Positions 509-17,828 of a stretch of 31,270 nt of DNA are shown here, one piece after another. Source of the stretch: Bacteroides sp. CAG:1060 (GTDB lineage: Bacteria > Bacteroidota > Bacteroidia > Bacteroidales > UBA932); assembly GCA_000432655.1 (NCBI GenBank), contig HF986284.1, positions 13,812 to 45,081 of the forward strand. Reading direction: 5' to 3'. How positions within the stretch are numbered: position 1 is the stretch's first letter; each line of letters starts with the position of its first letter. Both the position numbers and the translations under genes were made by a program. The notes beneath the pieces were generated by a model. The model was not told where the DNA came from, did not search any database, and saw only the letters and a program-made list of their open reading frames with translations.

Positions 509-1126
509 ATGAAACTGTTATTTGCTACCGCCAACAAAAACAAGCTTCGCGAAGCTGCAGAAATACTGGGAGACATGGTACATGTGATTTCTCCCTCCGA
601 ACTCAATATAAACGCCGATGTGGAAGAGACCGGAGAAACCTTGCAGGACAATTCCATCCTCAAGGCCCGAACACTCTATGACCTGAGCGGTCTTGACTGC
701 TTCGCGGACGATACCGGACTGGAAGTGGAAGTCTTGAACGGTGCTCCGGGAGTACTGACGGCCAGATACGCTGCCTGCTTCCCGGGAGGAGCATTACCGC
801 ATGACAGCGAAGCCAACATGAACCGCCTTCTCGAAGAGTTGTCAGAATACAGTACACCAGAGAGCCGCAGGGCACGATTCAGAACCGTCATCACACTGAT
901 ATACGAAGGCAGGCAGTATTGCTTCGAAGGGATTGTCTCAGGGACAATAGCCCAGGGAAAAGCAGGCAACGGCGGATTCGGATATGACCCAATCTTCATT
1001 CCTGACGGATTTGGAGGAAGGACCATGGCCGAAATATCGGAAGACGAAAAAAACGCCATATCCCATCGCGGCAGAGCGCTTAGAGCTATGGCTGAATTTC
1101 TTTCTACCGTCCGCGAGGACTATTGA
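509..1126 (+). CDS. rdgB: XTP/dITP diphosphatase (RdgB/HAM1 family)
   Basis: The 205-residue length is normal for the Ham1/RdgB family. The N terminus MKLLFATANKNK carries the nucleotide-binding TxNxxK motif (residues 7-12). The catalytic acidic pair is in ADDTGLEV (Asp67-Asp68). GFGYDPIF (157-164) and SHRGRA (185-190) complete the conserved set. The enzyme hydrolyses non-canonical purine triphosphates (dITP, XTP) to monophosphates and pyrophosphate in the cytoplasm, keeping deaminated bases out of DNA and RNA. An imperfect -7-like box (TAACTTTA, 479-486) lies 22 bases before the start. Its last 7 bases overlap the end of the convergent rnr gene, so there is no space for a terminator between them. 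Confidence 0.95.
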   Translation: MKLLFATANKNKLREAAEILGDMVHVISPSELNINADVEETGETLQDNSILKARTLYDLSGLDCFADDTGLEVEVLNGAPGVLTARYAACFPGGALPHDSEANMNRLLEELSEYSTPESRRARFRTVITLIYEGRQYCFEGIVSGTIAQGKAGNGGFGYDPIFIPDGFGGRTMAEISEDEKNAISHRGRALRAMAEFLSTVREDY

Positions 1127-3210: not shown

Positions 3211-3218
3211 ACGGGGAA

Positions 3219-3226
3219 CAAAGTTA
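3219..3226 (-). promoter_or_regulatory. Candidate -7 element for rnr
   Basis: On the minus strand the bases read TAACTTTG, a full match to the Bacteroidota -7 consensus TAnnTTTG. It ends 8 bases before the rnr ATG, placing the expected transcription start within a few bases of the start codon. I see no good TTTG -33 element at 19-21 bases, which limits confidence. Confidence 0.4.
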
Positions 3227-3248
3227 CGGATTTATCGGAGAATATTGT

Positions 3249-3256
3249 TATCTTTG
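3249..3256 (+). promoter_or_regulatory. Candidate -7 element for the DUF5020 gene
   Basis: TATCTTTG matches TAnnTTTG and ends 31 bases before the ATG at 3288. The -33 region is weak. It lies back to back with the rnr -7 box on the other strand, giving a compact divergent promoter between 3211 and 3287. Confidence 0.4.
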
Positions 3257-3287
3257 GGCGTTAGTTATCTTTATTTAAGGCAGATAA

Positions 3288-4049
3288 ATGAAAAAAATGT
3301 TCCTTTCGAGCATCATCGGTATCGGCATGATGCTCTGTCACAGCGCAAACGCGCAGACAAATCTTCAGATTCAGTACGACTTCGGCTCAGATCGTAAACA
3401 TGTCACCACGACATTCGAAGGCTTCTACAACGACCCATGGGGAAACACCTTCTTCTTCATTGACCATGATTTCAATTCCCGTGATGACAAAGGCAATGTC
3501 AAAGCACCAAGCGGCACCTACATGGAGGTGGCAAGATGCCTCAATTTCTGGCAGAACACGGTCATCTCTCCGCTCAGTCTTCATGTAGAGTATAACGGTG
3601 GTGTGTATAACGGATATACCATCAACAACGCATTCCTTACCGGTATAGACTACTTCCTCCACAGCGCCGATTTCCGATACACGCTGAATCTCAAAGCTCT
3701 GTACAAATACATCAGTTATTCTGACTCCGGCACCCACAGCAAACTTCCGATGCAGTTTACCGCCGTATGGGGAATGAAAGACCTGTTCGGAGTGAAAGGC
3801 CTGAGCTTTTCCGGATTTGCGGACTTCTGGTGGGAAGAGCACACGCTGATATTCGACAAGGACGGAGCAATTCTTCCAGAGCAGTCAAGCTTCGTATTCC
3901 TTTCCGAGCCGCAGCTTTGGTACAATGTAGGGGAACTGTTCGGCTGCAGCAACCTCAACCTCGGAGGCGAGATTGAACTTTCATACGATTTCGGCACCTG
4001 CAAGGGATTCCGCGCGCGTCCGTGCCTCGGCATGAAATGGGTATTCTAA
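3288..4049 (+). CDS. DUF5020 family outer-membrane protein
   Basis: 253 residues starting with a type I signal peptide that ends near SANAQ (about residues 1-23). The mature part begins NLQIQYDFGSDRKHVTTTFEG and includes DPWGNTFFFIDHDF, which I recognise as the pattern of the Bacteroidota family DUF5020 (Tsx-like nucleoside-channel superfamily). Alternating hydrophobic strands and a terminal aromatic residue (GMKWVF) fit an outer-membrane beta barrel. The transported molecule is unknown; a nucleoside-type solute is only a family-level guess. It is monocistronic: its own -7 box is upstream and a hairpin terminator follows at 4120. Confidence 0.82.
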   Translation: MKKMFLSSIIGIGMMLCHSANAQTNLQIQYDFGSDRKHVTTTFEGFYNDPWGNTFFFIDHDFNSRDDKGNVKAPSGTYMEVARCLNFWQNTVISPLSLHVEYNGGVYNGYTINNAFLTGIDYFLHSADFRYTLNLKALYKYISYSDSGTHSKLPMQFTAVWGMKDLFGVKGLSFSGFADFWWEEHTLIFDKDGAILPEQSSFVFLSEPQLWYNVGELFGCSNLNLGGEIELSYDFGTCKGFRARPCLGMKWVF

Positions 4050-4072
4050 AAACAGAGGTCGACTAAAAGTGA

Positions 4073-4093
4073 TGTGACCCCCAAAAGTTGGAC
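4073..4093. mobile_element. Possible solo terminus of an IS3-family element
   Basis: The bases around GTGACCCCCAAAAGTTGGAC resemble the terminal inverted repeats of IS3-family (IS150-group) insertion sequences common in Bacteroidota. No transposase frame and no partner inverted repeat follows; the next 180 bases hold two terminators. This would be a relic or a single tip. The resemblance is from memory of such ends, not from an alignment. Confidence 0.3.
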
Positions 4094-4119
4094 GGTATAA
4101 CATTAAAAAGTTTATTGGT

Positions 4120-4153
4120 AAAGAGTTCGGTATTGCACCGGACTCTTTCTTTT
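4120..4153 (+). terminator. Intrinsic terminator after the DUF5020 gene
   Basis: A 12-base stem (AAAGAGTTCGGT at 4120-4131, ACCGGACTCTTT at 4137-4148, one mismatch or wobble) has a 5-base loop and is followed by CTTTT. It lies 70 bases after the stop codon. A 21-base sequence that recurs after the terminator at 30011 starts in the T tract. Confidence 0.75.
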
Positions 4154-4170
4154 GTGAAGTTCGAAGTTCC
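4150..4170 (+). repeat. 21-bp dispersed repeat, copy 1
   Basis: The core GTGAAGTTCGAAGTTCC, preceded by four T, is identical to 30038-30058. It contains the tandem heptamer GAAGTTC twice. Both copies begin inside the T tract of a Rho-independent terminator, although the hairpins themselves are unrelated. Confidence 0.7.
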
Positions 4171-4224
4171 GCAGCGGCAGCATCTTCAGTGCGCGACACG
4201 GCCCCGTTCGGAGGTGAGCAGACA

Positions 4225-4260
4225 AAAAAAGTGGTCACGAAAAATCGTGACCACTTTTTT
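4225..4260. terminator. Strong bidirectional terminator ending the SusCD/protease operon
   Basis: A perfect 16-base inverted repeat (4225-4240 and 4245-4260) with an AAAA loop, flanked by A and T tracts so that it works on either strand. On the minus strand it lies 14 bases after the stop of the last lipoprotein gene and ends that transcription unit. On the plus strand it backs up the terminator at 4120. Confidence 0.9.
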
Positions 4261-4274
4261 GATATGTGATTGGC

Positions 4275-5303
4275 TTACCTTGAAATGTATGAATCTGAAG
4301 CCTTCTCAATCTTAGTTACAGAATCTGCGTCCTTCAAGCCGGATACCGTGATGCCGCTGGCGTCCCTCTTGGCTATGCATGCTGCGGTTGCAGCCTGAGC
4401 CTGCGCACTTTGAATCCTGGTTACACTCTCTACTGCGAGCTGGCCTCCATAAACGTATCCTATGAACTTCCCAGTTTTGTTGTCGAACAAGCCGTATGAC
4501 AGGTATTGGCCTTTACCAAGACCTACAGCGTAGTTGTCGGTATCAAGAGCCTGGAAGTAAAGTTCTCCACCGGTGTACGCTCTATTATCATCGGTAACTA
4601 CGATTGGAGCTACAATGCATGCTGTCTGTCCCTCAGGGAGGTTGAAAAGGTATGCGCCAACAGCATTGTCAACACCAAGAGGGAAGACGAAGAAAGTTTT
4701 GCCTTCTTCTTTAACCATGGTTCCTATGACAGGATATTTTGCTCCCGCTGCCTGTGTCTCTCCGAGAAGACCCCAGAAACCAATAGCACTGTTTTTTCCA
4801 TAAACGAAATCCCACTGCTCTGTGTGTGCTTCTCCGTCTTTAGTGCCTTTTGCAGCGAAAGATCCGGAATAGAAAGCTACTTCAGGTGCTATGAGAATTT
4901 CTGTCTGGCTGATTTGACCAATGCTACCAGCGCTGACGGTCTCAATCTTCAATGCGATATCGAAGATGCTTTCTTCGTTATTGATGACCCTGACGGTGAA
5001 TGCAGGAGTCTCTTCTGCGGAGTTGATTACAAGCTCTCTTTCGAGGAAACGGTAGTCAACGTTGCGCTCTGAGTAATCGTTGTCGTCTGCTGCCGGGATA
5101 TCCACGATCTTAACGGTCATAGGATATGTCACATTGGCGCCGCTAACCTTAACAGGCACGCTGAAGTTAGGTCCTTCCTCGAGGGAACATACATAAGAAT
5201 CCTGCTCGAAGCTGACAACTGCATCGCTGACAGTAGCTTTTTCACAAGATGCGGCGGCAAGTACAGCCAATCCCGCAAGAACGATGGTTCTAAATGCTTT
5301 CAT
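4275..5303 (-). CDS. Calx-beta-like surface lipoprotein (second of two paralogues)
   Basis: 342 residues with a lipoprotein signal peptide ending in AAASC (Cys20), followed by EK. Residues about 28-125 look like a Calx-beta-type immunoglobulin-like domain (VVSFEQDSYVCSLEEG, then NVDYRFLERELVINSAEE, then FTVRVINNEES). The rest is a second, probably beta-rich domain. It is recognisably paralogous to the lipoprotein at 8752-9627: both share the VSF/NVDY region, a GT-DG-A(H/Y)-(T/S)E-W stretch, a (V/I)GAYxF-VAP stretch and a D-x-(V/I)TK ending. It starts 17 bases after the subtilase stop and is the last gene before the terminator at 4225. The function is unknown; position suggests surface binding of substrate. 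No catalytic motif is visible. Confidence 0.75.
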   Translation of the reverse strand: MKAFRTIVLAGLAVLAAASCEKATVSDAVVSFEQDSYVCSLEEGPNFSVPVKVSGANVTYPMTVKIVDIPAADDNDYSERNVDYRFLERELVINSAEETPAFTVRVINNEESIFDIALKIETVSAGSIGQISQTEILIAPEVAFYSGSFAAKGTKDGEAHTEQWDFVYGKNSAIGFWGLLGETQAAGAKYPVIGTMVKEEGKTFFVFPLGVDNAVGAYLFNLPEGQTACIVAPIVVTDDNRAYTGGELYFQALDTDNYAVGLGKGQYLSYGLFDNKTGKFIGYVYGGQLAVESVTRIQSAQAQAATAACIAKRDASGITVSGLKDADSVTKIEKASDSYISR

Positions 5304-5320
5304 ATCAATTATTATTTAAA

Positions 5321-7750
5321 TTATATTTTCACTATTGTACTGTTTATCTCGACCTTGTCTGACTTGAGCTTGATTGAGTATACGCCTCCGGAGAGGGCGC
5401 TCATGTCGATTTTGCCAGGGCTGAACGGTGAGATATCCACATTTTCTTTAATAACACATTTTCCTGATGCAGAATAAATCTCGACATTTGCTGTGAAACT
5501 GTCTGCTGCACGGAAATAGAGATTGTCCTTTACAGGATTAGGATACATATCTACGGTTCTGGAAGAGCCGTCTCGAACAAGCAATTTAAGCTTTCCGCTT
5601 ACCTTTGCTCCGAAAGGATCGGTTGCCGTAATCTCAACTTCGTCGCTTCCATATTCGTGAGGAGTGAATATGAGTTTTCCTCCCTTGATTGCAAACTTGC
5701 CGATGTTTGTCTTGCTTACGTCGTAAGTAAGAGCGTCGCTGTCCGCATCAAAGAAATACTTCGACAAGTTGAGAGAAGATGCTTCGCCAATCTTATTGGC
5801 TACAAATCCGGTGAGAGGTTTCAGAATGATAGGAGTCTGGTTGGCATCAATTGAAACCCTGAATTCGCAACTGTGAACCTCGTCTTCCTGTCCGCATCCG
5901 ACGCTGAAAGTCATGTTGTACTCATTCTTTCTGTCCCAGTTCTTACCAACAGCCGTCTTGCCGTCCACGGTGACGATGAACCTTCTGTTAGGTCTGCTTG
6001 GATCCGGTGACAGAGTAATTCCATTGATTTCAGGTGTAATGGATACGTCAAGCTTATGTCCTGTCGGATTGTTTACGAGGAATACCAACTCTCTTGTCTG
6101 AGAAGGCTTCATCGACAGGTAATTGCTTGATTCCGGCTCGATGGTGTGCTCAGTGCTGGAGCTTCCCGTTATGGCTTCTCCTGCATTCACAAGACCGGAT
6201 CCGATCATCTCCACATTGTATGTGAGAACCTCCTCATTGACCGAAGCGAGAAGCATTCTTTCAAGATCCGCATTGGTGAATCCTGGTCCGCCACAATTGG
6301 ACAGTACAAGAGCGGCTACACCGGATACGTGAGGACAAGCCATTGATGTGCCCTGCATATATCCGTAGTCGTTTCTTGGAACTGTACTTAAGATTGTGTA
6401 TCCCTTGCGTGCATCTCCGCCCGGAGCGCAGATATCCACCCAACTTCCGAAATTGGAATAATATGCCCTTCTGTAATCGGCTCCGATGGAAGCTACTGCA
6501 AAAATTGGAGCATAGTTGGCCGGTGCACCGTTTCCTATATTGTCATTGCCTGCTGCGAAGATAACGATTCCTCCCTTCATTGGAGAATTGTCAAGCTGAT
6601 TGCCCTTGTTGTCGCATCCGGCATATTTGATAAAATAGTCAATGGCATCTCTCTCGTACGAGGATATCGTAGCCGCCATGGCATCGGTGTATTCGCTGCC
6701 TGTAAGCATTCCGTCCCCATTATAGTCGAAATTGTATCCCCAGCTGTTCTGTGAGATGACGGCACCATGGTCCGCACCCCATTTTATTGCCTGGGCTCCG
6801 TCTCCTCCTATATCTCCGGCTGCGGTAGTCATGAATATCTGGCATGACATAAGCTGCACGCCAGGTACTCCCTTGGCAGCATCACCACCGGCAATTCCAC
6901 AAACTCCTACTCCGTTGTTGTTCACAGCGGCAATGGTTCCCGCAACGTGGGTACCATGATCGTGAGCTGTGATTTTGCTGGAATTGTTGACAAAGTTGTA
7001 CCCACAGCTGCCAGTCTTTGGATCTGTCCACATATTGGCGGCGAGATCCGGGTGATCGTACTGGATACCTCCGTCCACCACGGATACGATTACGTTAGAG
7101 TTTCCTGCCACCTTGTCTTTCCATATTGGCAAGGCATTGACATCGCATCCTGCTGTCATTCCTTTCTGGGCACCGTCATTGTAGTAGTGCCACTGCTGGG
7201 AGAGATGCGGGTCGTTGAAGACCTTTGTCGCAGCTGAATTTGTGGCCGGAATATACTCTCCTGCCGGAATCACGGTGTTGTCGAACATCCCGACAATCTG
7301 GCGTCGAAACTCCACTTTCTCGATGCCCGGCTTTCCATAGAATGCCGCTTCAGCATCTCTAAGAGAGATGTTTTTCGGAAGTTCTACCCGATACCATCTG
7401 TCCAGGCCGGCTTCATGGGTGCGCTCCTCGTATTCTCCCGCGTAAGGGAATACTCTGGAAAGGCCCACAGGTTTCACGATACTGAAAACCTCATCTTCTG
7501 CCTTGGTCCCAAGGCAGAGGATTTCCAGATTCGCATCCACCTCGGCGATTCTTTCACGCATTGCATCGTTGACCTTGATGAGAATTTCTCCCTGGTGTAT
7601 GACGCTCGGGTGAATGGCAGCACCACTCGATTGGGAAATGAAACTGTCAGATGTCTCTGAAGCTGTGGATGTAACTGTCACATCTCTCTTGTCGCAAGCG
7701 CAGATAGCAAGAGACACTAAAACTATAGATGAAATAAAACTATATCGCAT
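5321..7750 (-). CDS. S8 (subtilisin-family) serine protease with T9SS-type C-terminal sorting domain
   Basis: 809 residues. The catalytic triad is complete: Asp226 (VSVVDGG), His265 (HDHGTHVAG) and Ser469 (QGTSMACPHVSG), with oxyanion Asn402 (FAAGNDN). Residues about 50-155 form a region that may act as a propeptide. The catalytic domain spans about 215-525 and contains a canonical EF-hand-type loop, DYNGDGMLTGSE (342-353). Two beta domains follow (about 540-640, and a cadherin-like one at 640-727 with KYFFDADSDALTYDVS). The last 80 residues (MYPNPVKDNLYF at 735-746, ending in IVKI) match the type A sorting tail of T9SS cargo. The N terminus looks like a lipoprotein signal (LAICAC, Cys19), which is unusual for such cargo. 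The gene starts 2 bases after the PorV-like stop, so coupled translation is likely. It probably degrades proteins at or outside the cell surface; substrate unknown. Confidence 0.92.
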   Translation of the reverse strand: MRYSFISSIVLVSLAICACDKRDVTVTSTASETSDSFISQSSGAAIHPSVIHQGEILIKVNDAMRERIAEVDANLEILCLGTKAEDEVFSIVKPVGLSRVFPYAGEYEERTHEAGLDRWYRVELPKNISLRDAEAAFYGKPGIEKVEFRRQIVGMFDNTVIPAGEYIPATNSAATKVFNDPHLSQQWHYYNDGAQKGMTAGCDVNALPIWKDKVAGNSNVIVSVVDGGIQYDHPDLAANMWTDPKTGSCGYNFVNNSSKITAHDHGTHVAGTIAAVNNNGVGVCGIAGGDAAKGVPGVQLMSCQIFMTTAAGDIGGDGAQAIKWGADHGAVISQNSWGYNFDYNGDGMLTGSEYTDAMAATISSYERDAIDYFIKYAGCDNKGNQLDNSPMKGGIVIFAAGNDNIGNGAPANYAPIFAVASIGADYRRAYYSNFGSWVDICAPGGDARKGYTILSTVPRNDYGYMQGTSMACPHVSGVAALVLSNCGGPGFTNADLERMLLASVNEEVLTYNVEMIGSGLVNAGEAITGSSSTEHTIEPESSNYLSMKPSQTRELVFLVNNPTGHKLDVSITPEINGITLSPDPSRPNRRFIVTVDGKTAVGKNWDRKNEYNMTFSVGCGQEDEVHSCEFRVSIDANQTPIILKPLTGFVANKIGEASSLNLSKYFFDADSDALTYDVSKTNIGKFAIKGGKLIFTPHEYGSDEVEITATDPFGAKVSGKLKLLVRDGSSRTVDMYPNPVKDNLYFRAADSFTANVEIYSASGKCVIKENVDISPFSPGKIDMSALSGGVYSIKLKSDKVEINSTIVKI

Positions 7751-7752
7751 CG

Positions 7753-8667
7753 TCAGAATGAATAACCGAGATTAAACATCAATGTGTTGCCCATAGGATT
7801 TCCTTGGGGAGCGAGCACATACGCCGCATCCAATGAAACGCCAAACAGGCAGAGTCCTGCTCCAAGAGTAGCATATGACGGAAAGTCGGAGTCCGAATTC
7901 CAGCAATATCCTCCTGATAGTCTGAAAATATCTTTGAACAGATAGCTGAGTCCTCCCTTTGCGGACACGACAGAGTCTGTGATAAGGTACCCTGCCTGAG
8001 CGTCCACTGACATCCTATGCGTGCCTTTTCCGAGCGTGTATCCAGCGCCAAGATCAATATGAGCAGGAAGACTGTAGTCCTTTCCGCCATAATTGACAGA
8101 GGTTCCGAGATTCGCCGCAGACAGGGCTGCTCTAAGACCTTTGTGCTTGAAATACACTCCCAAGTCGGCAGCGAACGCATTAGCTACTTCTGGGGCGCCT
8201 ATGTCAGAACGGATATAGTTGAATGTTGCTGATACAGACAGTCCGGAAAGTATGTTGAATCCGGCGCCTACACCGAAAGCCATTTCCATAGGAGTGAAAC
8301 TTCCAGTGAAGAGTCCGTTGTCGTCAGCTATGTCATAACTCTGATATCTTGCCATTTTGCCTCCCGCCGTAATGCTCCACCTTTTGCCTATTCTGCCATA
8401 TCCTGCGACGGCATACGTTTGAGCCTTCATGGCGTCAGGCTGCCATAGCCCGAATGCTGCAGATGCAGCCATAGTCTTGTCCGATAGACCGGCTGAAGCA
8501 GCGTTGTTCCAAAAAGCGAACGCGTTTGCTTCAGACGCAACAGACGCTCCACCCACGGAAAGGGTTTTGGCGTCAGGACTTGCATTCAAAAACTGAGCGG
8601 CGCTTTCTTGTGCAAACGCAATGACAGAGCCGGTCAGAAAGAATAATATTGGAAGAATTCTCTTCAT
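7753..8667 (-). CDS. PorV/PorQ-family outer-membrane barrel protein
   Basis: 304 residues with a type I signal peptide (cleavage near AFAQ, about residue 19). The mature start, AAQFLNASPDAKTLSVGGAS, and the FWNNAASAGLS segment are the signature of the PorV/PorQ (FadL-like, UPF0164) family; the C terminus LMFNLGYSF is a barrel-end signal. In type IX secretion, PorV carries cargo from the SOV translocon to the attachment complex by binding the C-terminal domain, and PorQ works with PorZ. This copy is shorter than classical PorV, so it may be a locus-specific homologue. Its position directly before a protease with a T9SS tail supports a cargo-handling role, but the assignment to PorV or PorQ is inference. 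Confidence 0.82.
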   Translation of the reverse strand: MKRILPILFFLTGSVIAFAQESAAQFLNASPDAKTLSVGGASVASEANAFAFWNNAASAGLSDKTMAASAAFGLWQPDAMKAQTYAVAGYGRIGKRWSITAGGKMARYQSYDIADDNGLFTGSFTPMEMAFGVGAGFNILSGLSVSATFNYIRSDIGAPEVANAFAADLGVYFKHKGLRAALSAANLGTSVNYGGKDYSLPAHIDLGAGYTLGKGTHRMSVDAQAGYLITDSVVSAKGGLSYLFKDIFRLSGGYCWNSDSDFPSYATLGAGLCLFGVSLDAAYVLAPQGNPMGNTLMFNLGYSF

Positions 8668-8680
8668 CTGTTGTCTTTTG

Positions 8681-8729
8681 AAAAAAGAGGACGACTCAGG
8701 AAATCCTTTACGACTTCTAGGCCGTCCTC
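8681..8729 (-). terminator. Intrinsic terminator or attenuator inside the SusCD/protease operon
   Basis: On the minus strand, GAGGACGGC (8721-8729) pairs with GTCGTCCTC (8687-8695) as a 9-base stem with one G-T wobble. The 25-base loop holds a small AGGA/TCCT inner stem, and TTTTTT (8681-8686) follows. It lies 22 bases after the stop of the first lipoprotein gene and 13 bases before the PorV-like start. No convincing new promoter sits between it and that start, so it may act as a leaky terminator that sets the downstream genes lower than SusCD. Confidence 0.7.
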
Positions 8730-8751
8730 ATTGAAACTATCAATAACTGAA

Positions 8752-9627
8752 TTACTTGACCTTAGTAATGGTATTGTCATTTATGTAGAGAGCCGGCTTG
8801 TAGACACCAAGCAGTTTTCTTGCGTCATCGTAAGAATATACTGCCAGAATAAGTCCATAAGGCTCTTCAATCTGCCATACGATAGACTTGAAGTCTTCGC
8901 TTACCTTTCCTACGAGGGTTCCGCTTGCAACTTTGAACCTATCGTCGTCGGCCAAGTATCCAAATGCCGGAGCCACATATGCCGCACCTATGCCGGAGAA
9001 GTTATATGCTCCGATTGGATTTCCGCCACCGAGTTCGAAGGATACAACACCGTCTTCACACTTACCTACAAGGCCATCTTTCTCTCCATAGATGCCGGAT
9101 ATAAGGATATCTCCGTTATCATTGCTGATTTTCCATTTTTCAGAATATGCAGCGCCGTCGCTGGTTCCGACTACCGAATATGTGCCGCAGACACGGTCCA
9201 GCTCTGATTTGGCGCATCTGATAAGGGTGCTTGCAACCATCTCGGAAGATACGCTTGCGCCTTTTATGTCAAGTGCGAAACGAAGTTCGTCTGCATCTTC
9301 AGGGTTAAGGATGCGAATCTCAATACTAGGTTTGCTTTCAGCGGATGCCACTACAATATCTTTGGAGGTGATGATGTAGTCCACATCCTCTTTGGCGGCA
9401 AATGAGCCTGAGTATTCTTTTACCTCTATGTTTACCGTGCAAGGGTAAGCGGTAGCATCGCCGGCTACGGACAGCGGAATGTAGATGTATTCAGCACCGA
9501 GGCCGGTCTCGATCTCTGCTGATTTGAATCCAACCGCTGCAGTGCCTGTAGGGCCATTTGTCTTCTCGCAAGAGGCGACAAGAAGCAATGAAGCAAATGC
9601 TGCAAGTAATATTTTAGTTGATTTCAT
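8752..9627 (-). CDS. Calx-beta-like surface lipoprotein (first of two paralogues)
   Basis: 291 residues with a lipoprotein signal ending in LVASC (Cys20), followed by EK as in its paralogue at 4275-5303. Residues about 30-125 resemble a Calx-beta-type domain (AAVGFKSAEIETGLGAEY, then EDVDYIITSKDIVVASAES, then IEIRILNPED). The C-terminal part is beta-rich with GTSDGAAYSEKWK and IGAYNFSGIGAAYVAP. It sits 11 bases after SusD, the position occupied by SusE-like surface binding lipoproteins in polysaccharide loci, so a substrate-binding role is plausible. No enzyme motif is visible. A terminator-like hairpin follows. Confidence 0.76.
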   Translation of the reverse strand: MKSTKILLAAFASLLLVASCEKTNGPTGTAAVGFKSAEIETGLGAEYIYIPLSVAGDATAYPCTVNIEVKEYSGSFAAKEDVDYIITSKDIVVASAESKPSIEIRILNPEDADELRFALDIKGASVSSEMVASTLIRCAKSELDRVCGTYSVVGTSDGAAYSEKWKISNDNGDILISGIYGEKDGLVGKCEDGVVSFELGGGNPIGAYNFSGIGAAYVAPAFGYLADDDRFKVASGTLVGKVSEDFKSIVWQIEEPYGLILAVYSYDDARKLLGVYKPALYINDNTITKVK

Positions 9628-9638
9628 ATCGATTCTAT

Positions 9639-11207
9639 TTATTTGGTGTAACCTTCATTCTGCTTGAGATTCGGATTGGCGTCTGTCTCTGCAACAGGGA
9701 TAGGCCATACGAAGCGGAAATCGCCAGCAGATTTTTTGAGGTTCTCTGTGGTAGCCTGTCCTGGAAGAGAAATGACATTCTGATCCTGAGATGCTGACCT
9801 TGCAAAGCCCTGATTGTATCTCTTGAGGTCGCTGAGGCGGAATCCTTCTCCAATGAGCTCTCTTACGCGCTCATTCTTGATCTCTGTCTGAAGATTATTT
9901 TCGGTGTAGAGTTTCTCCTCCCAGTCAGAAATACGCTTTGACTGAAGATCGTTGAGAAGCTTGGATGCTTCACTGACGCCATTGGAGAGTCCGGACTTCA
10001 GATAAGCTTCCGCTGCAATGAGATAAAGCTCTGCAAGGCGGAACGGCTTCGGGGCGTTCCTGTAGTTTACATCTGCAGGAGCGGTCTGAAGTGCAGGGTT
10101 GCCGCAGAACTTGTTGAGGACAAACAAAGGCTCTGATACTCCTGCAGCCTGAGTAAGTGGAGTCTGCATGAAATATACTGCCTTACGAAGGTCCTTTTCT
10201 GAATACAAATCCAAAATCCACTGCTCCGGGATGTAATCAGGGTTGTAAGTGTTCTTTGAGTAATTGAAGTTGAGGTATCCGTAGTTGTTGGTGCCAGGAT
10301 CTTCCGTCTTAAGGACTGCGGAGCACTGCATGATGCATTCGGAAAGAGTATTGTCGTTTACCCAAAGAGCCTTAAGGCCGTCCTCGTTGCCGGTAAGGGC
10401 ATATATTCCGGAGTTGATCACCTGTGTAGCGTCCTGAATAGCGGTATCGTAATCTTCGCAGAGGAGAGCAATGCGGGCTCTGAGAGCTCTTACCGCATCA
10501 AGAGTAATATACTTGCTGCCTGCTGCTGAAGCATGAGCGAGCTCAATATTGGCCTCTGCTGCTTCCAGGTCCTCAAGCATGAAGCTGTAGGAAGCCTTGA
10601 GAGTTGAGCGTCCAGGATACTTTCCTTTGTCGGCAGTTGGCTCATACTTGGTCACGATGGCAAGTCCGAGGTCTTCCTTGTTTTCATTCTCCGCGGTGTA
10701 TGCCGGGCAGAATCTGTCGAAAAGGATAGAGTAAGCGTAAGCTCTTAAAAAGTGAGCTTCTGATATCTGTCCCTTGAGCAAATCAAGATCGGCAGACGCC
10801 CAGTTCTTTGCGAACTCTGAGTCTGTGGTGACTTTTTCCTGTACAGCTGCAGCCTTTTCGATAAAGAAGTTGGCATTTGCTATTGCAGCATAGCAGGCCC
10901 CCCAAACAGATGAGAAATCGGGGTCGGTGGCATCGAATGCCCAACGATATATAAGACCGCCACGGTTACCGAAGTTCGTAGTTGCGTGGAAGACGTCGGC
11001 CTGGATCTCAGGATTGTAGTTGACTGAACCTACCGCCAGACTTCTGATTTGAATATGAAGTCCGTTAGACAATTTTGCAGCATCCGCCGGAGACTCCAAG
11101 GCGTTCTCAGGGTCAACTGCACCGTATGGACGCTTGTTCATGTCGCAACTTGCAAAAAGCCCGACTACAGCAGCCAATATAAAAGATATTTTGAATATAC
11201 GTTTCAT
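9639..11207 (-). CDS. SusD/RagB-family outer-membrane nutrient-binding lipoprotein
   Basis: 522 residues from the ATG chosen here, which gives a clean signal (MKRIFKISF, ending LFASC, Cys21). An in-frame ATG 9 bases upstream (11216) is possible but adds only MTF before the basic start. SusD hallmarks: an alpha-helical tetratricopeptide-like core with a helix around SEAHFLRAYAYSILFDRF, then DLGLAIVTKYEP, a middle YITLDAVRALRARIALL helix, and a C-terminal segment with RNAPKPFRLAELYLIAAEAYLK and ERVRELIGEGFRLSDLKRY. The protein forms the lid on the SusC barrel and captures substrate at the cell surface. It follows SusC directly, and the two should form a SusC2D2 complex. Sequence does not tell sugar from peptide. 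Confidence 0.95.
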   Translation of the reverse strand: MKRIFKISFILAAVVGLFASCDMNKRPYGAVDPENALESPADAAKLSNGLHIQIRSLAVGSVNYNPEIQADVFHATTNFGNRGGLIYRWAFDATDPDFSSVWGACYAAIANANFFIEKAAAVQEKVTTDSEFAKNWASADLDLLKGQISEAHFLRAYAYSILFDRFCPAYTAENENKEDLGLAIVTKYEPTADKGKYPGRSTLKASYSFMLEDLEAAEANIELAHASAAGSKYITLDAVRALRARIALLCEDYDTAIQDATQVINSGIYALTGNEDGLKALWVNDNTLSECIMQCSAVLKTEDPGTNNYGYLNFNYSKNTYNPDYIPEQWILDLYSEKDLRKAVYFMQTPLTQAAGVSEPLFVLNKFCGNPALQTAPADVNYRNAPKPFRLAELYLIAAEAYLKSGLSNGVSEASKLLNDLQSKRISDWEEKLYTENNLQTEIKNERVRELIGEGFRLSDLKRYNQGFARSASQDQNVISLPGQATTENLKKSAGDFRFVWPIPVAETDANPNLKQNEGYTK

Positions 11208-11221
11208 AAAGGTCATTTTAA

Positions 11222-14200
11222 TTAAAAGTTAATTTCTGCACCAAATGTGAACTGCTTAGAGTTAGGGTAGCGTCCGAGCTGGAGGTTTGAGGAAGACTCT
11301 GGATCATATCCTGTATATTTGGTGAAAGTAAGAAGGTTACGACCTACTACGAATACCTTGACATTGTCTATGAAACCGATTTTGCGTACAAGGTTGCGTG
11401 GAAGAGTGTATGCGCACTGAAGGTTCTTCAGGCGGAGGAAAGACGCGTCTTCAAGCCAAATGTCGTTACCAATCTTTCTCTCTGATTCGAGACAAGGAAC
11501 ATCGGTAACCTGACCAGGAGTTGTCCACATGTTGAGAAGTTCGGCCGCACCGTTGCCATCAGTTAGGAACAGAGGGTTCATAAGGAAGAATTTGTCGTTG
11601 TTGATGGTATATTTACCTGCAACCCATGAGAACTGTGCTCCGATAGAAAGACCCTTCCAGCCGAATGTGAAGTTGAAACCGCCAGCCCAAGGAGCAAACA
11701 TCTGCTTTCCGGTGAATACGGCGTAATCGTCTGAGAACGTCTTGGTCTTGTTGCCTTCCGCATCGTAGTACATCTGCATACCGTCACGAGGATCCACACC
11801 TGCATTTCTCACAGTGAAGAACTCTCCGTAAGGCTTTCCGACTTCAAGTTTAGTACCTGTTCCGGAAATTTCGAAGCTGTCGCGTCCGTCGAAGAGCTTT
11901 GTGATCTCGTTACGGTTGTAGTTGAAGTTGGCGGACAGGTTGAGGTAGAAGTCCTGTGGCATAGGGACGTCGTAAGAAAGCTCGAAGTCCACACCGCGGT
12001 TGAGCATGTCGGCCACATTACCCCATCCGCTTGAGTGTCCAGTGGTCATGGAGTAAGGAATCTCCATGAGCATGTCCTTTGTGACTTTGTTGTAGAAGTC
12101 CACATCAATGCTCAAACTGTTAAAGAGCTTGGTGGATACGCCCACGTTAAGGTTTTCTACAACTTCCCATGAGAGGTCGTCATTTGACGGAGAGCTGAGT
12201 CCCCAGGCAGTCTTGCCGTTGTAAAGGCTGGCATAGGCGCCCACAATACCGTAGGCGAGGTAGTTGTCGATGCTTGAGTTACCGGTGGTACCGTAGCTTG
12301 CCTTGACGGAAAGATTGTTGAGCCATGGGATATTGGATAACCATGCTTCCTTGGTGATATTCCAGCGTGCACCGATAGACCAGAAATTGGCATAGCGCCT
12401 GTTCTTGCCGAAGAGAGAGGAACCGTCCCTACGGAAAGAAGCATCTAAGAGGTACTTGTCGTCATGATTGTATCCGATACGGGAGAAATAAGAGTTGAAT
12501 ACCTCTTCAGACTTGGACCAAGACGGCTTTTTGTAAACGGTACCATAGTTGATCTCTTCCTGTCTCAGGTCGGTGATTCCTTCTACGGAAGTGCCGAATG
12601 CATTGGTGGTGCTGAGAATGCTCTCCTGGCCAAGCAGGATGTTGACATTGTTCTTCTCTGCGAAGTCAAACTCGTACTCGGCAGTGTTGGTGAACGTCAT
12701 CTGGTAGTATCTTGAGAAATTCTCGCCAGCTGTACCGGCGCCCTCAAACGGACCGACAGGGTTTGCCTTTTGGGAGATGCGTCTGTCATTTCCGTTCAGT
12801 GCCTGTACGGCGCGAAGGGTAAGCCCCTTGACCGGGGTGAACTGCTCGTAAAGATTGCCGCTGAGGCGGATATAGTTGGTGGTTGAAGGCTGAAGCTTCT
12901 GAAGATAATAGGTATTGTAGAATCCCAGCTCCTCGAAGAAAGTCCTCTCCTCTCCGAGAGTAAGAGAGCCGTCAGCATTGACCGTGTACTCGTATGGCAG
13001 CATCCAAGGATACATCCGTGATGCCATGAACATCGGGTTGTACACACTGTTGCGAGAGTTGGAGAAACCGGTAGTGTTGACATCCTGATAGGTCAGGTTC
13101 ATGGAGAAACCGGTCTTGATCCAGTCGTTGAGCTGGGCATTCAGCTTTGACATGAAAGATATACGGGACATATCTGAGTATGGAGCGTTACCCTCCTGTG
13201 TAAGGGCTCCGAGAGATACGTAGTAGTCGGTCTTTGAAGTACCGCCGCTGAATGTCGCACCAGCCTGCCATGTAGGAGCTGTCGCATCAGCCTGCCATGT
13301 AGGAGCATGAGGCTTGAAGAAGTAATCTACCCAGTTGGTATTGATGTTATGATCGAGGGCGAAGTCCTTCTGGGCTGCACGTCCCGGCTTGTCAAGGAAA
13401 GTCGGATCCATCATCTCGTTGAAGTCGAACCACTGCTCGGAGTTCATGAGCTGGATATTGTGGTTGACGATGTTTGAGACACCGTACTGTGCACGTACTG
13501 TGAATACAGGCTTCTCCGAAGAGCGGCCTGCCTTGGTGGTGATGAATACCACACCGTTGGCGGCACGTGAACCGTAAATGGATGTCGCAGAGGCGTCCTT
13601 CATGACAGTGATGTTCTCAATGTCATTTGCGTTGAGGGCGGAGAAGATTGAAGCCGGAACCGGGCTGCCGTCAAGAACGAACAGAGGCTCGGTATCAGCG
13701 GAGATGGAGTTGACACCACGAATTCTCATGGAAATGGTTGCACTTGGCTCTCCTGAATTGGACCATACCTGAAGACCTGCAACCTGTCCCTGAAGAGCAT
13801 CTCCGACACTTGCCACAGGGGCGTTCTGCAAAAGTTTAGCACCTACGGTAGCTGCAGAACCTGTAATGGCGGAAATTTTCTTGGCGGAGCCGTATCCCAC
13901 GATGATGGCGTCTTCCAGAATTTCAGTGTCCACTGAAAGCGGAAGGTCAATCTGTGCGCGGCCGTTGATAGGAAATTCTGCGGTCTTGAACCCGATAAGT
14001 GTCACGACCAATGTGCCGTTTGAAGGGACGGCAGAGAGCGAATAGCGTCCATCCAGATCAGTGATCGAGTACTTTGTAGCACTTCCCTTGAGTTGGACAG
14101 TTGCACCTACAACAGGGTCCCCGTTGCCCGCATCAATCACTGTACCTGATACGCTGATGTTCTGAGCGCCTGCATACAAAGCAGCTGCAAAAAGCATCAG

Positions 14201-14230
14201 GGTCGTGATTAAAAGTCTTGCTTTTTTCAT
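11222..14230 (-). CDS. SusC/RagA-family TonB-dependent outer-membrane transporter
   Basis: 1002 residues. Signal peptide (to about residue 22, YAGAQ), carboxypeptidase-regulatory-like domain (about 25-100, VSGTVIDAGNGDPVVGATV), a TonB-box-like segment near 106-114 (EDAIIVGYG), the plug domain (about 125-235, DALQGQVAGLQV and MRIRGVNSI), then the 22-strand barrel ending FTFGAEINF. It imports large nutrients with energy from TonB-ExbBD, with SusD as its lid. Residues 309-326 hold a 9-residue tandem repeat (APTWQADAT, APTWQAGAT). It is the first gene of the operon, with a promoter at 14321-14351. No ECF sigma or anti-sigma pair is next to it, and it has no N-terminal signalling extension, so regulation comes from elsewhere. 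Confidence 0.96.
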   Translation of the reverse strand: MKKARLLITTLMLFAAALYAGAQNISVSGTVIDAGNGDPVVGATVQLKGSATKYSITDLDGRYSLSAVPSNGTLVVTLIGFKTAEFPINGRAQIDLPLSVDTEILEDAIIVGYGSAKKISAITGSAATVGAKLLQNAPVASVGDALQGQVAGLQVWSNSGEPSATISMRIRGVNSISADTEPLFVLDGSPVPASIFSALNANDIENITVMKDASATSIYGSRAANGVVFITTKAGRSSEKPVFTVRAQYGVSNIVNHNIQLMNSEQWFDFNEMMDPTFLDKPGRAAQKDFALDHNINTNWVDYFFKPHAPTWQADATAPTWQAGATFSGGTSKTDYYVSLGALTQEGNAPYSDMSRISFMSKLNAQLNDWIKTGFSMNLTYQDVNTTGFSNSRNSVYNPMFMASRMYPWMLPYEYTVNADGSLTLGEERTFFEELGFYNTYYLQKLQPSTTNYIRLSGNLYEQFTPVKGLTLRAVQALNGNDRRISQKANPVGPFEGAGTAGENFSRYYQMTFTNTAEYEFDFAEKNNVNILLGQESILSTTNAFGTSVEGITDLRQEEINYGTVYKKPSWSKSEEVFNSYFSRIGYNHDDKYLLDASFRRDGSSLFGKNRRYANFWSIGARWNITKEAWLSNIPWLNNLSVKASYGTTGNSSIDNYLAYGIVGAYASLYNGKTAWGLSSPSNDDLSWEVVENLNVGVSTKLFNSLSIDVDFYNKVTKDMLMEIPYSMTTGHSSGWGNVADMLNRGVDFELSYDVPMPQDFYLNLSANFNYNRNEITKLFDGRDSFEISGTGTKLEVGKPYGEFFTVRNAGVDPRDGMQMYYDAEGNKTKTFSDDYAVFTGKQMFAPWAGGFNFTFGWKGLSIGAQFSWVAGKYTINNDKFFLMNPLFLTDGNGAAELLNMWTTPGQVTDVPCLESERKIGNDIWLEDASFLRLKNLQCAYTLPRNLVRKIGFIDNVKVFVVGRNLLTFTKYTGYDPESSSNLQLGRYPNSKQFTFGAEINF
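13254..13307 (-). repeat. 27-bp in-frame tandem duplication inside susC
   Basis: The 27 bases at 13254-13280 are repeated at 13281-13307 with two mismatches, giving two 9-residue units (residues 309-317 and 318-326) just after the plug, before the first barrel strands. High identity suggests a fairly recent duplication. Confidence 0.85.
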
Positions 14231-14320: not shown

Positions 14321-14351
14321 CAAATTTAGAAGATTTTTTCACTTGACCAAA
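14321..14351 (-). promoter_or_regulatory. Promoter of the SusCD/protease operon
   Basis: On the minus strand a TTTG -33 element (14348-14351) is separated by 19 bases from TAAATTTG (14321-14328), matching the Bacteroidota consensus TTTG-N19-TAnnTTTG. Predicted start near 14313 leaves a leader of about 80 bases before the susC ATG. Confidence 0.8.
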
Positions 14352-14604: not shown

Positions 14605-16818
14605 ATGGAGAAAGTGACCGTAATTCCTTCGGAAAAGCTTGCGAACGGGTGGATAGACCCGTCGTTCCTGCCTGAAGGTCAGGACAAGTATTACATAAGG
14701 AACCGACAAGTGAAGGCTCCTGCCGGCGGCTGGCGACATCTTACAAGTGATGAGATAGAGAGGCTTGTAAAGAATGACAATACAGCGTCAAGCTGGGATA
14801 CCATCTGGGTGACGGATGAGTTTATCCCCCGCATGCTCAAGAACAACAATTTCTATGGTACCGTGCGTATCGGGAGAATCTCCGACAACGGACTCCAGTT
14901 TCATGATTTGCGGCTTCCGATCGGTATCACCAACTCGTCGATACATTCCTGTGATATAGGCGATGACTGCGCCATTCATGACGTGCATTATCTGAGCCAT
15001 TATATAATAGGTGACAGGTGCATGCTCTTCAACATTCATGAGATGTCTTCCACTGACCATGCCAAGTTCGGCAACGGCATTGTCAAGGACGGAGAGCCGG
15101 AGAGCGTCAGGGTGAAACTTCACGTGATGAACGAGACCGGGTGCCGCAGCGTTTATCCTTTCGACGGGATGATTACCGCAGATGCATATCTTTGGGCCAA
15201 ATACCGGGACGACCTGCCGCTTCAGAAAAGGCTTGAAGAGATGACCCAGTCAGTTCAGGACCACCATCGCGGATATTACGGCACCGTGGGTTCGGGCTGC
15301 GTCATCAAGACTTCCGAAATCATCAAAGATGTCAAGATCGGCACCGGATGCTATATTAAAGGTGCAAGCAAGCTCAAGAACATCACCATCAATTCTTCCG
15401 AGAGCGAACCTACCCAGATAGGGGAAAATGTGATTCTGGTCAACGGAATCGTGGGCTACGGCTGCCGTATCTTCTATGGCTGCACTGCCGTCAAGTTTGT
15501 CATCGGGACCAACTGCAACCTTAAATACGGTGCCCGTGTCATCGATTCCATACTCGGGGACAACAGCACGATTTCGTGCTGCGAGGTGCTCAACAACCTT
15601 ATCTTCCCTGCGCATGAGCAGCATCACAACAATTCTTTCCTTATTGCTGCCTGTCTTCTGGGGCAGAGCAATCTCGCCGCCGGTGCGACCATAGGCTCCA
15701 ACCACAACTCGCGGTCCAATGACAATGAAGTGGTTGCGGGGCGTGGTTTCTGGCCGGGACTTTGTTCGTCCATAAAGCACTCGTGCGTGTTTGCCTCATT
15801 TACCCTTCTTGCCAAGGGTGCCTATCCTGCCGAGATGCATATCCGGCTGCCGTTCAGCATGGTGAGCAATAATGAATCCGAAGGGTGCCTGGAGATAATG
15901 CCGGCGTTCTGGTGGCTGCACAATATGTATGCACTTGCCCGCAACAACTGGAAATTCCAGACAAGGGACAGACGGCTTACCAAGGTGCAGAACATAGAGT
16001 TTGACACTTATGCACCGGACAGCATGGAAGAGGTGCTCCAGGGCATGGAACTGCTGGCGCTTTGGACTGCCAAGGCATGGTTCCGTTCGCGCGGAGAAGA
16101 TTGTGCTGCAGTCGGTTTCGAGGCTCTTGTGCGGAAAGGACGGGAGCTGTTGGAAGGCCCTTATGAGACGGTAGCGTCTCTTGAGGTACTTGGGGAGGAT
16201 GTGGAGAAATCGAAGCGCAAAGTGCTGATACGCAAGCCGTGGCAGGCATATAGAGCTTACTCGGAGATGATTGTGCATTATGCTATGGGCAATGTGCTCA
16301 AGTATTTTGAGGGTAATTCTTCTCCGTCGTTCGAATATCTTTCCGGGCTTTCGGCAGCCCCACGCGAGAAGATGTGGGTGAATCTTGGCGGTCAGCTGAT
16401 GAAAAACAGCGATGTGGATACTATTCGTGAAGATATCGTTTCGGGCGTTCTTCCGGATTGGGTGTCGATTCACTCCAGATACTCTCAGATCTGGCAGTCT
16501 TATCCGGAGGCGAAACTGGCGCACTCAGTGCAGTGTCTGGCAGAGCTTTATGGCACCCGATGCCTTTCAAAAGAAGACTGGCGTCGTGCGCTGGAAGATG
16601 AAAAACGGATATGCCGACTTGTCAGCGACCAGGTGTACCTGACCAGACTGAAGGATTATGAGAATCCGTTCCGTCGGGCGACATACCGAAACGAAGATGA
16701 GATGACGGCTGCCATCGGGCGAGTGGAGGACAATAGTTTTGTGAAGCAGGTTGCGTCCGATACCGAGAAAGAATTATTGCAAATAGACAGAATTTTAAAT
16801 ATTTTAGGAAAGCTATGA
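14605..16818 (+). CDS. DUF4954 family protein with left-handed beta-helix repeats
   Basis: 737 residues, no signal peptide, so cytoplasmic. Two stretches of hexapeptide-type repeats (about 85-145 with IGDDCAIHDV and IGDRCMLFNI; about 228-375 with IGTGCYIKG, IGENVILVNG, YGCRIFYGC, IGTNCNLKYG) indicate a left-handed beta helix like that of acyl- and nucleotidyl-transferases such as GlmU. The segment NLIFPAHEQHHNNSFLIAAC (331-350) is typical of the Bacteroidota family DUF4954. The C-terminal 350 residues are helical and unrecognised. No nucleotidyl-transferase motif is seen, so the beta helix may act as an acyltransferase or as a scaffold. Its stop overlaps the SIS start (ATGA), implying coupled translation and linked function. 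Confidence 0.85.
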   Translation: MEKVTVIPSEKLANGWIDPSFLPEGQDKYYIRNRQVKAPAGGWRHLTSDEIERLVKNDNTASSWDTIWVTDEFIPRMLKNNNFYGTVRIGRISDNGLQFHDLRLPIGITNSSIHSCDIGDDCAIHDVHYLSHYIIGDRCMLFNIHEMSSTDHAKFGNGIVKDGEPESVRVKLHVMNETGCRSVYPFDGMITADAYLWAKYRDDLPLQKRLEEMTQSVQDHHRGYYGTVGSGCVIKTSEIIKDVKIGTGCYIKGASKLKNITINSSESEPTQIGENVILVNGIVGYGCRIFYGCTAVKFVIGTNCNLKYGARVIDSILGDNSTISCCEVLNNLIFPAHEQHHNNSFLIAACLLGQSNLAAGATIGSNHNSRSNDNEVVAGRGFWPGLCSSIKHSCVFASFTLLAKGAYPAEMHIRLPFSMVSNNESEGCLEIMPAFWWLHNMYALARNNWKFQTRDRRLTKVQNIEFDTYAPDSMEEVLQGMELLALWTAKAWFRSRGEDCAAVGFEALVRKGRELLEGPYETVASLEVLGEDVEKSKRKVLIRKPWQAYRAYSEMIVHYAMGNVLKYFEGNSSPSFEYLSGLSAAPREKMWVNLGGQLMKNSDVDTIREDIVSGVLPDWVSIHSRYSQIWQSYPEAKLAHSVQCLAELYGTRCLSKEDWRRALEDEKRICRLVSDQVYLTRLKDYENPFRRATYRNEDEMTAAIGRVEDNSFVKQVASDTEKELLQIDRILNILGKL

Positions 16819-17825
16819 ATCTTGAACAAGAAAAATATTCCCGCTACAGCCTCGTCAAAGAGATGATGGGGACTGTACCTACCGTAGCTGAGTTTGACCC
16901 TTCATGCGTTTGTACTGTGGCAGAGTCTCTTCGCAGGACAGGTCGCATGTTCTTTACCGGGGAAGGTTCGTCAAGAATAATGCCGGCCAAGAATGCTCGC
17001 CGTCGTGCCATGAATTGGGGGCTTGCCGTGAATGTCCAGTGTGACGGAGCCCGTCAGGCGCTTGGCTATGACCTTTCGCAATATACCGTCCTTGTGGACT
17101 CCAATTCGGGGCGGACCAAAGAAGCGCTGACGCTTGCAAAGAAACTGAGGGCCGAAGGTCACAGGGAATTGTTTTCCCTCAGTGCCAATGAGGATACGCC
17201 GATTGAGAAAGAGTGCGTGAGCGGCTCTGTGCTGAAGTGCGGATGGGAAGAAGCCGTGGCCGCCACCAAGAGTGTAGTGGAACAGGGGCTTTACTGTGAT
17301 TCCATTATCTGGGCTTTGGCCGGCAGGGATTTCAAGTCATCCCTTGACGGATTGTCGGAGAAAATACGCGCGGCGCTTACCATGCAGATAGATCCTCAGA
17401 TCGTAGAGTGGGTCAAGGGAGCGAATACTGTTTATTTCAGCGGACTCAATGATGGTGTGGCTGAGGAACTTACCCTTAAGACCAATGAAATCACCCGCCG
17501 CAAAAGTGATTATCTCGAAGGGACATACGCTGTCCATGGAATCGAGGAGGTGATGCAGTCGGGAGATGTGGTGTTTATAGTCGATCCTATTGAGAGCGAG
17601 TACGACAAATTCCTTTCAGTACTTGGCGGAGCCGGTGTGCATACTGTAGGAATCCATCACAAGCCTACCCCGTTCGAAAAGACTGTCCTTGTGCCTGATG
17701 CCGGGGAATGCCAGAACTATGTCAATCTTTGTGCTGGATGGAATGTGCTTGTGGAGATAGCCGTGAGTGATGGTATCAACCTTGACAAGCCGGAGAGGGC
17801 CAGAAAGGTGGGTAATGAGATGTAA
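16815..17825 (+). CDS. SIS-domain (sugar isomerase-type) protein
   Basis: 336 residues, cytoplasmic. Two SIS-type halves are suggested: FFTGEGSSRIMPAKNARRRA (47-66) and the phosphosugar-loop-like DSNSGRTKEA (95-104) in the first, and a second half beginning near IVEWVKGANTVYFSGLNDG. The layout resembles the isomerase half of GlmS, but the glutaminase domain is absent. Such proteins bind or isomerise phosphosugars, or sense them as regulators; no DNA-binding domain is present. It overlaps the DUF4954 gene by 4 bases and is followed after 3 bases by lplA, so the three are almost certainly co-transcribed. The substrate is unknown. Confidence 0.85.
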   Translation: MNLEQEKYSRYSLVKEMMGTVPTVAEFDPSCVCTVAESLRRTGRMFFTGEGSSRIMPAKNARRRAMNWGLAVNVQCDGARQALGYDLSQYTVLVDSNSGRTKEALTLAKKLRAEGHRELFSLSANEDTPIEKECVSGSVLKCGWEEAVAATKSVVEQGLYCDSIIWALAGRDFKSSLDGLSEKIRAALTMQIDPQIVEWVKGANTVYFSGLNDGVAEELTLKTNEITRRKSDYLEGTYAVHGIEEVMQSGDVVFIVDPIESEYDKFLSVLGGAGVHTVGIHHKPTPFEKTVLVPDAGECQNYVNLCAGWNVLVEIAVSDGINLDKPERARKVGNEM

Positions 17826-17828
17826 GGG

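Follow-up and report, generated by a model that had tools for sequence, protein, structure and literature searches.

A RagAB-like SusCD operon of Bacteroides sp. CAG:1060 encodes an S8 protease with a type A tail next to a PorV-like barrel

Introduction

We analysed a 31,270-nucleotide stretch of DNA (the window) from Bacteroides sp. CAG:1060, and within it six minus-strand genes (4275-14230) encoding a SusCD importer pair, two lipoproteins (LP1 and LP2), a PorV-like outer-membrane barrel and an S8 protease that ends in a tail of the type IX secretion system (T9SS). The closest described importer is RagAB of Porphyromonas gingivalis, a SusCD-type oligopeptide importer that, as is probable here, is accompanied by surface proteolysis. 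The gingipains of P. gingivalis are delivered by the T9SS and, to our knowledge, are encoded outside any ragAB operon. The window SusC and SusD are nearer to RagA and RagB than to other solved pairs, whereas the operon differs in combining protease, PorV-like barrel and importer, and in that its protease is lipoprotein-like.

Type A tails are shuttled by PorV in the T9SS (PMC10994853, PMC12618676; comparisons with the papers cited here and below refer to the portions of their text available to us). In Flavobacterium johnsoniae PorV recognises all type A tails (PMC12618676), and in the solved PorV-tail complexes the tail is held by PorV loops (PMC10994853). The window locus shares with this system the type A tail, the PorV fold and a conserved tail lysine; it differs in that barrel and protease form a gene pair, the translocon SprA was not found in related genomes, the protease N-terminus is of the lipoprotein type and the barrel scores below the curated PorV cut-off. 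Type B tail genes are often followed by a FadL-family barrel gene of their own, thought to provide a surface anchor, and a type B tail and a PorP/SprF-like barrel have been found in complex (PMC9143113, PMC12618676). Such pairs may be taken as a published analogue of the docking step proposed below, although their tails are type B, their barrels PorP-like and both partners members of a T9SS, whereas the window tail is type A.

The BT4240-50 mucin locus of Bacteroides thetaiotaomicron (PMC11992087) likewise unites in one operon a SusCD pair and a peptidase, itself a surface lipoprotein, that is proposed to supply the importer. Its peptidase is M60-like with a CBM32, the locus includes glycoside hydrolases, and the available text mentions neither a T9SS tail nor a PorV-like barrel. 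In utilisomes (PMC7618045) importer, binding lipoprotein and degrading enzyme are co-encoded as they are here, and judging from the genes the window products may plausibly form one complex; the two utilisomes described serve levan and dextran, and the portions available leave a separate anchoring barrel unmentioned. We regard the glycan utilisome as a possible published analogue of enzyme-importer coupling. The available portions of PMC9143113, PMC12618676, PMC7618045 and PMC11992087 describe no PorV-like barrel that is dedicated to a type A tail independently of the T9SS. The new point of this study is that a T9SS tail and a PorV-like barrel are kept as a pair in related genomes without SprA.

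Results

All six open reading frames (ORFs), which an earlier note on this DNA had described as uninterrupted on the minus strand, were recovered at the positions given there. The gaps between them measure 2 to 84 bp, and they are an operon-like run. Families were assigned by Pfam and NCBIfam profile searches. The run consists of a SusC/RagA-family TonB-dependent transporter (11222-14230, 1002 aa), a SusD/RagB-family lipoprotein (9639-11216, 525 aa), the putative surface lipoprotein LP1 (8752-9627, 291 aa), the PorV-like protein (7753-8667, 304 aa), the S8 subtilase (5321-7750, 809 aa) and the lipoprotein LP2 (4275-5303, 342 aa). As the earlier note had stated, no glycoside hydrolase, polysaccharide lyase, sulfatase or hybrid regulator was matched among the six genes; of the marks of a polysaccharide utilisation locus the SusCD pair is present, and a carbohydrate-active enzyme was not matched among them.

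The S8 protein comprises a lipoprotein-type N-terminus, Peptidase_S8_N (103.1 bits, cut-off 30.5), a catalytic domain (Peptidase_S8, PF00082, 137.8 bits, cut-off 21.8; residues 218-504, 6239-7099), Big_9 and a T9SS type A C-terminal domain (residues 735-809, 5324-5548). This tail scored 42 bits against Por_Secre_tail (PF18962, cut-off 27) and 34.7 bits against TIGR04183 (cut-off 23), which places it in type A, and the S8-protease-with-T9SS-tail architecture read from the letters was thus borne out by Pfam and NCBIfam alike. Residues D226, H265 and S469, which we take from subtilase motifs to be the catalytic triad, were invariant in all rows of a 33-row alignment (the window protein and 32 of 120 listed homologues), and C19 was kept in at least 90%. 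The subtilase looks intact; its predicted model (mean pLDDT 86.6) found subtilisins as structural matches. Among solved chains the tail segment matched best, by sequence, the T9SS sorting domain 8glj_D (E = 6.6e-4), followed by the lipase 7pzj (E = 9.8e-4) and 8glk_D (E = 0.053), values that are weak because the segment is short.

A feature missing from the earlier note is the lipoprotein-type N-terminus of the window S8 protein (ICAC with Cys 19, judged by motif); on the same motif basis, the Sec type I signal peptide expected of T9SS cargo was not recognised. Under a strict rule 70 of 81 S8-plus-tail proteins, the window's included, had a lipoprotein-type N-terminus. Among the remaining 11, a lipobox-like Cys was seen by eye in eight (L004, L006, L059, L062, L100, L108, L111 and L125), and the other three (L005, L126 and L135) were cut or had an unclear start. 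An acidic residue at +2 to +6 was present in 66 of the 70, reminiscent of the Bacteroides surface-export signal (PMC6222051), the rule applied here being looser. In SprA-positive kin, none of 16 Met-starting tailed proteins was lipoprotein-like (at least two, in L156 and L161, have doubtful starts), nor was the M43 protein of L117, and many tailed proteins of these kin showed by eye an AQ-type signal-peptide end. Tail residues G763, G789 and Y791 were kept in all 81 proteins and K808 in 75. By its position near the C-terminus we equate K808 with the lysine reported as an almost invariant type A residue that touches PorV in all structures, its main role being thought by the authors to lie elsewhere (PMC10994853).

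The PorV-like protein scored 159.7 bits against the family model PorV_fam (NF033709, cut-off 90) and failed the curated models for PorV (NF033710, 86.3 vs. 250) and PorQ (NF033711, 71 vs. 220); six PorV genes of SprA-positive kin reached 301 to 406 bits with NF033710. Against Pfam PorP_SprF it scored 20.5 bits, just under the cut-off of 22.3. Its predicted model has 14 long strands forming a FadL/PorV-type barrel, and the top solved structural matches were PorV chains, those of the solved PorV-tail complexes. In the tree a branch with 100/97 support separates 82 PorV-like rows from 14 rows taken as canonical PorV. A second PorV-family gene in L136 (10624-11499) has no tail neighbour and is followed by a 380-aa ORF; its nearest tree row, P0019, is a hypothetical protein.

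A scan of named genome contigs yielded 10 loci, and the PorV-like gene adjoins an S8 gene in seven of them (L001-L006 and L008), L001 carrying the full SusC-SusD-LP1-PorV-like-S8 set; L007, L009 and L010 showed no such pair. From the family of the L001 genome 299 genomes were drawn evenly. The alignment of PorV-like proteins matched below 1e-10 in 161 of these genomes, and the 30 best matches all adjoin an S8 gene. Wider regions were then taken from a subset picked mostly among the best PorV-like matches, giving 85 PorV-like genes (that of the window and 84 of SprA-negative genomes). A tail-bearing same-strand neighbour, mostly S8, was present for 83 of the 85, at a median gap of 7 bp; counted per pair, the tail gene was recorded as upstream in 78 and, as in the window, downstream in 7. 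The two genes without such a neighbour are in L075, 117 bp from a contig end, and L136, where it is the second copy. SusC and SusD were both found within 7 kb of the PorV-like gene, on either side or strand, in 49 of 71 cases, namely those with at least 7 kb available upstream or with SusCD seen, a selection that leans upwards; several of the other 22 had only SusD within 7 kb. The conserved adjacency that the earlier note had proposed as a check is therefore found for the tail gene and, less uniformly, for SusCD.

In an order-level set of 247 genomes, eight genomes had a match below 1e-40, the others among the matches listed being weaker (at least 3.9e-30). Two of the eight also belong to the family draw and six lie outside it. 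An S8-tail gene with a lipobox-like Cys together with the barrel was found in G508 (two loci), G409, G424 and G480, and SusCD lies beside the pair in both G508 loci and in G409.

SprA was sought with two models (TIGR04189 and PF14349) in 35 pair-bearing genomes and matched in none. A Cytophagales control was positive for both SprA models and for GldM, PF14349 having that control only, and TIGR04189 was positive in all five kin chosen for weak PorV matches. Neither model matched in G289 or G001, the genomes with the closest SusC (74% and 69%). GldM_1st matched in three of the 35; matches over its cut-off were seen in G105, G079 and G197, genomes without detected SprA. The SprA-positive genomes G013, G014, G027, G046 and G111 gave no PorU model match over the cut-off. 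Tails numbered 1 to 4 per genome in all 35 pair-bearing genomes, and none were found in the seven family members without a PorV-like match.

Across the family draw SprA exceeded its cut-off in 48 of the 299 genomes, 45 of which had a PorV-family match (best 3.2e-40) and three none, while every one of the 92 genomes whose PorV-like match fell below 1e-40 was SprA-negative. Among the 251 SprA-negative genomes, 103 had both a PorV-family match (below 1e-10, and thus taking in weak matches) and a tail (below 1e-3), 13 had the former alone, 12 the latter alone and 123 neither (Fisher p = 6e-41, genomes being counted as independent despite kinship). Where a PorV-family match occurred without SprA, the median number of tails per genome was 1, vs. 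7.5 in SprA-positive genomes. Some of the SprA-negative genomes combine numerous tails with weak matches (G054, G057, G100 and G162) and may be incomplete T9SS-positive genomes. A parallel arrangement was observed in SprA-positive G013, where L117 (3-10152) carries SusC, SusD, an LP2-like gene, an M43 metallopeptidase with a T9SS tail and a canonical PorV.

SusC scored 719.7 bits against the SusC/RagA model TIGR04056 (cut-off 368) and SusD 74.7 bits against SusD_RagB (cut-off 23.1). Among solved structures the best chain for SusC was RagA (6sli_B, 575 bits), the next different protein being 8aa4 (361 bits), and the best chains for SusD were RagB (107.6 bits), in line with the comparison to RagAB made in the earlier note. 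The SusC of the relative locus L104 reached 613 bits to RagA. That of L057 was about equally near to 8aa4 (368 bits), a dextran utilisome entry (PMC7618045), and to RagA (366 bits), so that the SusC of relatives' operons is not always clearly RagA-like.

Among 38 SusC matches sharing 49% identity or more, a PorV-like gene was located within 13 kb for 12 (33 matches were computed and 5 checked by hand, no genome contributing more than two candidates; pairs split by contig breaks may be missed). We further inspected 20 loci (L195-L214) whose SusC matched at 43 to 60% and for which a neighbouring PorV-like gene was not known; from the same-strand runs after SusC 67 proteins were scanned jointly (25 of the 32 matching families being listed) and 30 of those or nearby proteins singly. 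An M64 peptidase follows the matched SusCD in four loci (L202, L207, L213 and L214), and in L200 one follows a neighbouring, more distant SusCD (35%). GH20 was found in L210 and a melibiase in L207, which also has M64; AXE1-like esterases comprise one in L207 and weak matches in L201 and L203. The remaining run proteins among the matches listed were BACON or unmatched proteins, regulators, a racemase and housekeeping genes.

Several of these runs have further features. The L210 run includes, after a same-group SusCD pair, a 1518-aa ORF (6283-10839) whose N-terminus is ceramidase-like and which contains two stretches of GH20. In L201, L203 and L207 same-group SusCD runs lead to the AXE1-like esterase, an AraC-type regulator being shown for L203 and L207, and the L203 run also holds an Asp/Glu racemase-like protein. 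Two long ORFs, about 1420 and 1272 aa in length, are frequent neighbours of the SusCD operon (L060, L070, L104, L105, L107, L108, L196, L199 and L214); the former is RpoC in L104, and the other long ORFs were judged by length. Beside them some genomes carry S8 and barrel, some neither and one an M64 peptidase, and when the first six of these loci are compared with the last three, this looks like a place where proteases are swapped. In L135, close to a double S8/PorV-like pair, positions 45-6600 hold 12 consecutive same-strand ORFs, 11 of them of 152-154 aa.

For LP1 and LP2 no Pfam family (E 0.01) and no NCBIfam family was matched, which leaves the Calx-beta label of the earlier note without Pfam support for either lipoprotein. 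The two share 30% identity over 250 aa and are paralogues; LP1 has a lipobox-like ASC with Cys 20. LP1 homologues lie near SusD in many relatives examined, and an LP2-related gene occupies the equivalent position in L097. In 12 relative loci, the 13 proteins scanned whose genes lie between those of SusD and S8 matched BACON, fn3, Big_5, Cleaved_Adhesin, DUF4302 or BT_3987, or were unmatched, and none of the 20 relatives' proteins scanned, these 13 included, matched a glycan enzyme family.

The operon is flanked on the opposite strand by a DUF5020 gene (3288-4049) and a DUF4954 gene (14605-16818). A candidate promoter, TTTG-N19-TAAATTTG, lies on the minus strand at 14321-14351, 91 bp upstream of SusC; it matches what we take to be the Bacteroidota promoter consensus, of which the window holds two matches vs. 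0.51 expected (10 of 100 shuffles reach two). Between LP2 and the convergent DUF5020 gene, a terminator-like hairpin of 12 pairs (4120-4148, located on the plus strand) is a weak candidate, the region holding 8 such hairpins vs. 9.2 in shuffles, with no enrichment. Elsewhere in the window, 14605-18791 encodes consecutively the DUF4954 hexapeptide-repeat protein, a weakly sugar-phosphate-isomerase-like protein and a lipoate-protein ligase. At 23119-29262 an AraC-type regulator adjoins TolC-like, HlyD-like and two ABC-2 permease-like genes, a group that by its gene content is likely an efflux operon.

Discussion

We consider it on balance probable that the operon is a RagAB-like protein-scavenging locus in which a lipoprotein protease would be docked on its own PorV-like barrel without a T9SS. 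LP1, LP2 and SusD would catch protein at the cell surface. The S8 subtilase, lipidated as its N-terminus suggests, would be brought to the cell exterior like any other surface lipoprotein of the Bacteroidota, and its type A tail would bind the loops of the co-encoded barrel as in the solved T9SS complexes. The barrel would then hold the protease in the outer membrane beside the RagAB-like importer without the SprA translocon. Protein cut there would yield peptides that SusC, with SusD as its lid, would import with TonB energy, as modelled on RagAB. Directly observed are the gene set, its conserved adjacency, the joint occurrence of tail and barrel in SprA-negative genomes, the PorV/FadL-type fold of the barrel model, the lipoprotein-type N-terminus and the retained tail lysine; with RagAB as the nearest solved pair, these favour this reading. 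The replacement of S8 in related SusCD operons by M64, or by M43 with a tail in a SprA-positive genome, also supports it. Put more generally, a type A tail and a PorV-family barrel may have been taken over from the secretion system as a stand-alone docking pair of the outer membrane, or even as a single delivering barrel, by which a lipoprotein protease is positioned next to a peptide importer in many Bacteroidales genomes without SprA, a proposition we place only slightly on the likely side of even.

Several observations weigh against the docking of a scavenging protease as proposed here. Four S8-plus-tail genes (L163-L166) lack a PorV-like neighbour in genomes that have the pair elsewhere, and the PorV-like genes of G515 and G416 lack a tail neighbour. 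In G424 and G480 there is, besides, a second and weaker match with the size of canonical PorV, and judging from these genes the pair may coexist with a T9SS there. Thirteen SprA-negative genomes have a PorV-family match with the tail undetected; the co-occurrence test leaves relatedness uncorrected, and its counts come from genomes without completeness figures. In the solved complexes SprA buries more of the tail surface than PorV does (about 1000 vs. about 850 square angstroms), and it is suggested there that PorV binds the tail less strongly once it has been released (PMC10994853). Finally, carbohydrate-type enzymes in the gene runs of 4 of the 20 related SusC loci mean that this SusC group is not purely tied to protein degradation, which slightly weakens the proposal and strengthens one in which glycans or glycopeptides are imported.

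In that alternative, which we find tentative at best, the protease only opens glycoproteins, as in the BT4240-50 mucin locus. GH20 or melibiase in 2 and AXE1-like esterases in 3 of the 20 loci, one locus counting in both, speak for it, as does the precedent of a published SusCD locus with a surface M60-like peptidase (PMC11992087); RagAB is nevertheless the closest solved pair, the window operon lacks a carbohydrate enzyme match, and no glycan enzyme family was matched among the 20 relatives' proteins scanned. The protein-scavenging reading of the earlier note stands to the extent that M64 follows SusCD in four of the 20 loci, with one further case, and falls short as an exclusive one because carbohydrate-type enzymes occur in 4 of them. 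That note had held its reading open to refutation by homologues next to glycan enzymes, now seen in part (4 of 20 loci), or by a lack of adjacency, which the 83 of 85 paired genes do not show. The same note had taken the PorV-like protein for a candidate T9SS secretion helper. As written this is not supported, since none of the 92 genomes with strong matches has SprA, the curated PorV and PorQ cut-offs are failed and the partner protease is lipoprotein-like, and in its simple form it is probably wrong. A broader version, in which barrel and tail still serve secretion as PorV does, through a divergent or unrecognised translocon or in a T9SS-bearing host, appears unlikely. It draws on the PorV fold and family, the passing of the type A models by the tail, the GldM_1st matches in 3 of 35 genomes and the apparent presence of both PorV-like and canonical-size PorV in G424 and G480, but must accommodate the missing SprA in the 35 pair-bearing genomes (two models) as well as in the larger draw, and an N-terminus unlike that of tailed proteins of SprA-positive kin.

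The barrel might instead be a one-component surface-delivery device that flips or threads the tail-bearing lipoprotein outward. Tight pairing and close gene spacing are compatible with such a role, and the Bacteroides machinery that brings lipoproteins to the surface was described as unidentified as of 2018 (PMC6222051). The tail-less SusD, LP1 and LP2 of the same operon would, however, need another surface route, and this explanation seems to us distinctly improbable. FadL-type barrels are, as far as is generally known, also narrow. We consider it least probable that a T9SS was lost and left tail and barrel behind as functionless remnants: one family does contain both SprA-negative and SprA-positive genomes, yet the tail residues are kept in 75 to 81 of 81 proteins, adjacency holds in 83 of 85 cases, and SprA-negative genomes without a PorV-family match are mostly tail-less (123 vs. 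12).

The presence of a T9SS tail is commonly read as evidence of type IX secretion. The tails studied here persist together with a shuttle-type barrel in genomes that gave no translocon match, suggesting that binding between the two can function by itself, and a direct test of how the tail's job is shared between docking and export becomes possible. With S8, M64 and M43 peptidases at related importers, the findings also suggest that "protein utilisation" loci, a counterpart of those for glycans, are widespread among uncultured Bacteroidales.

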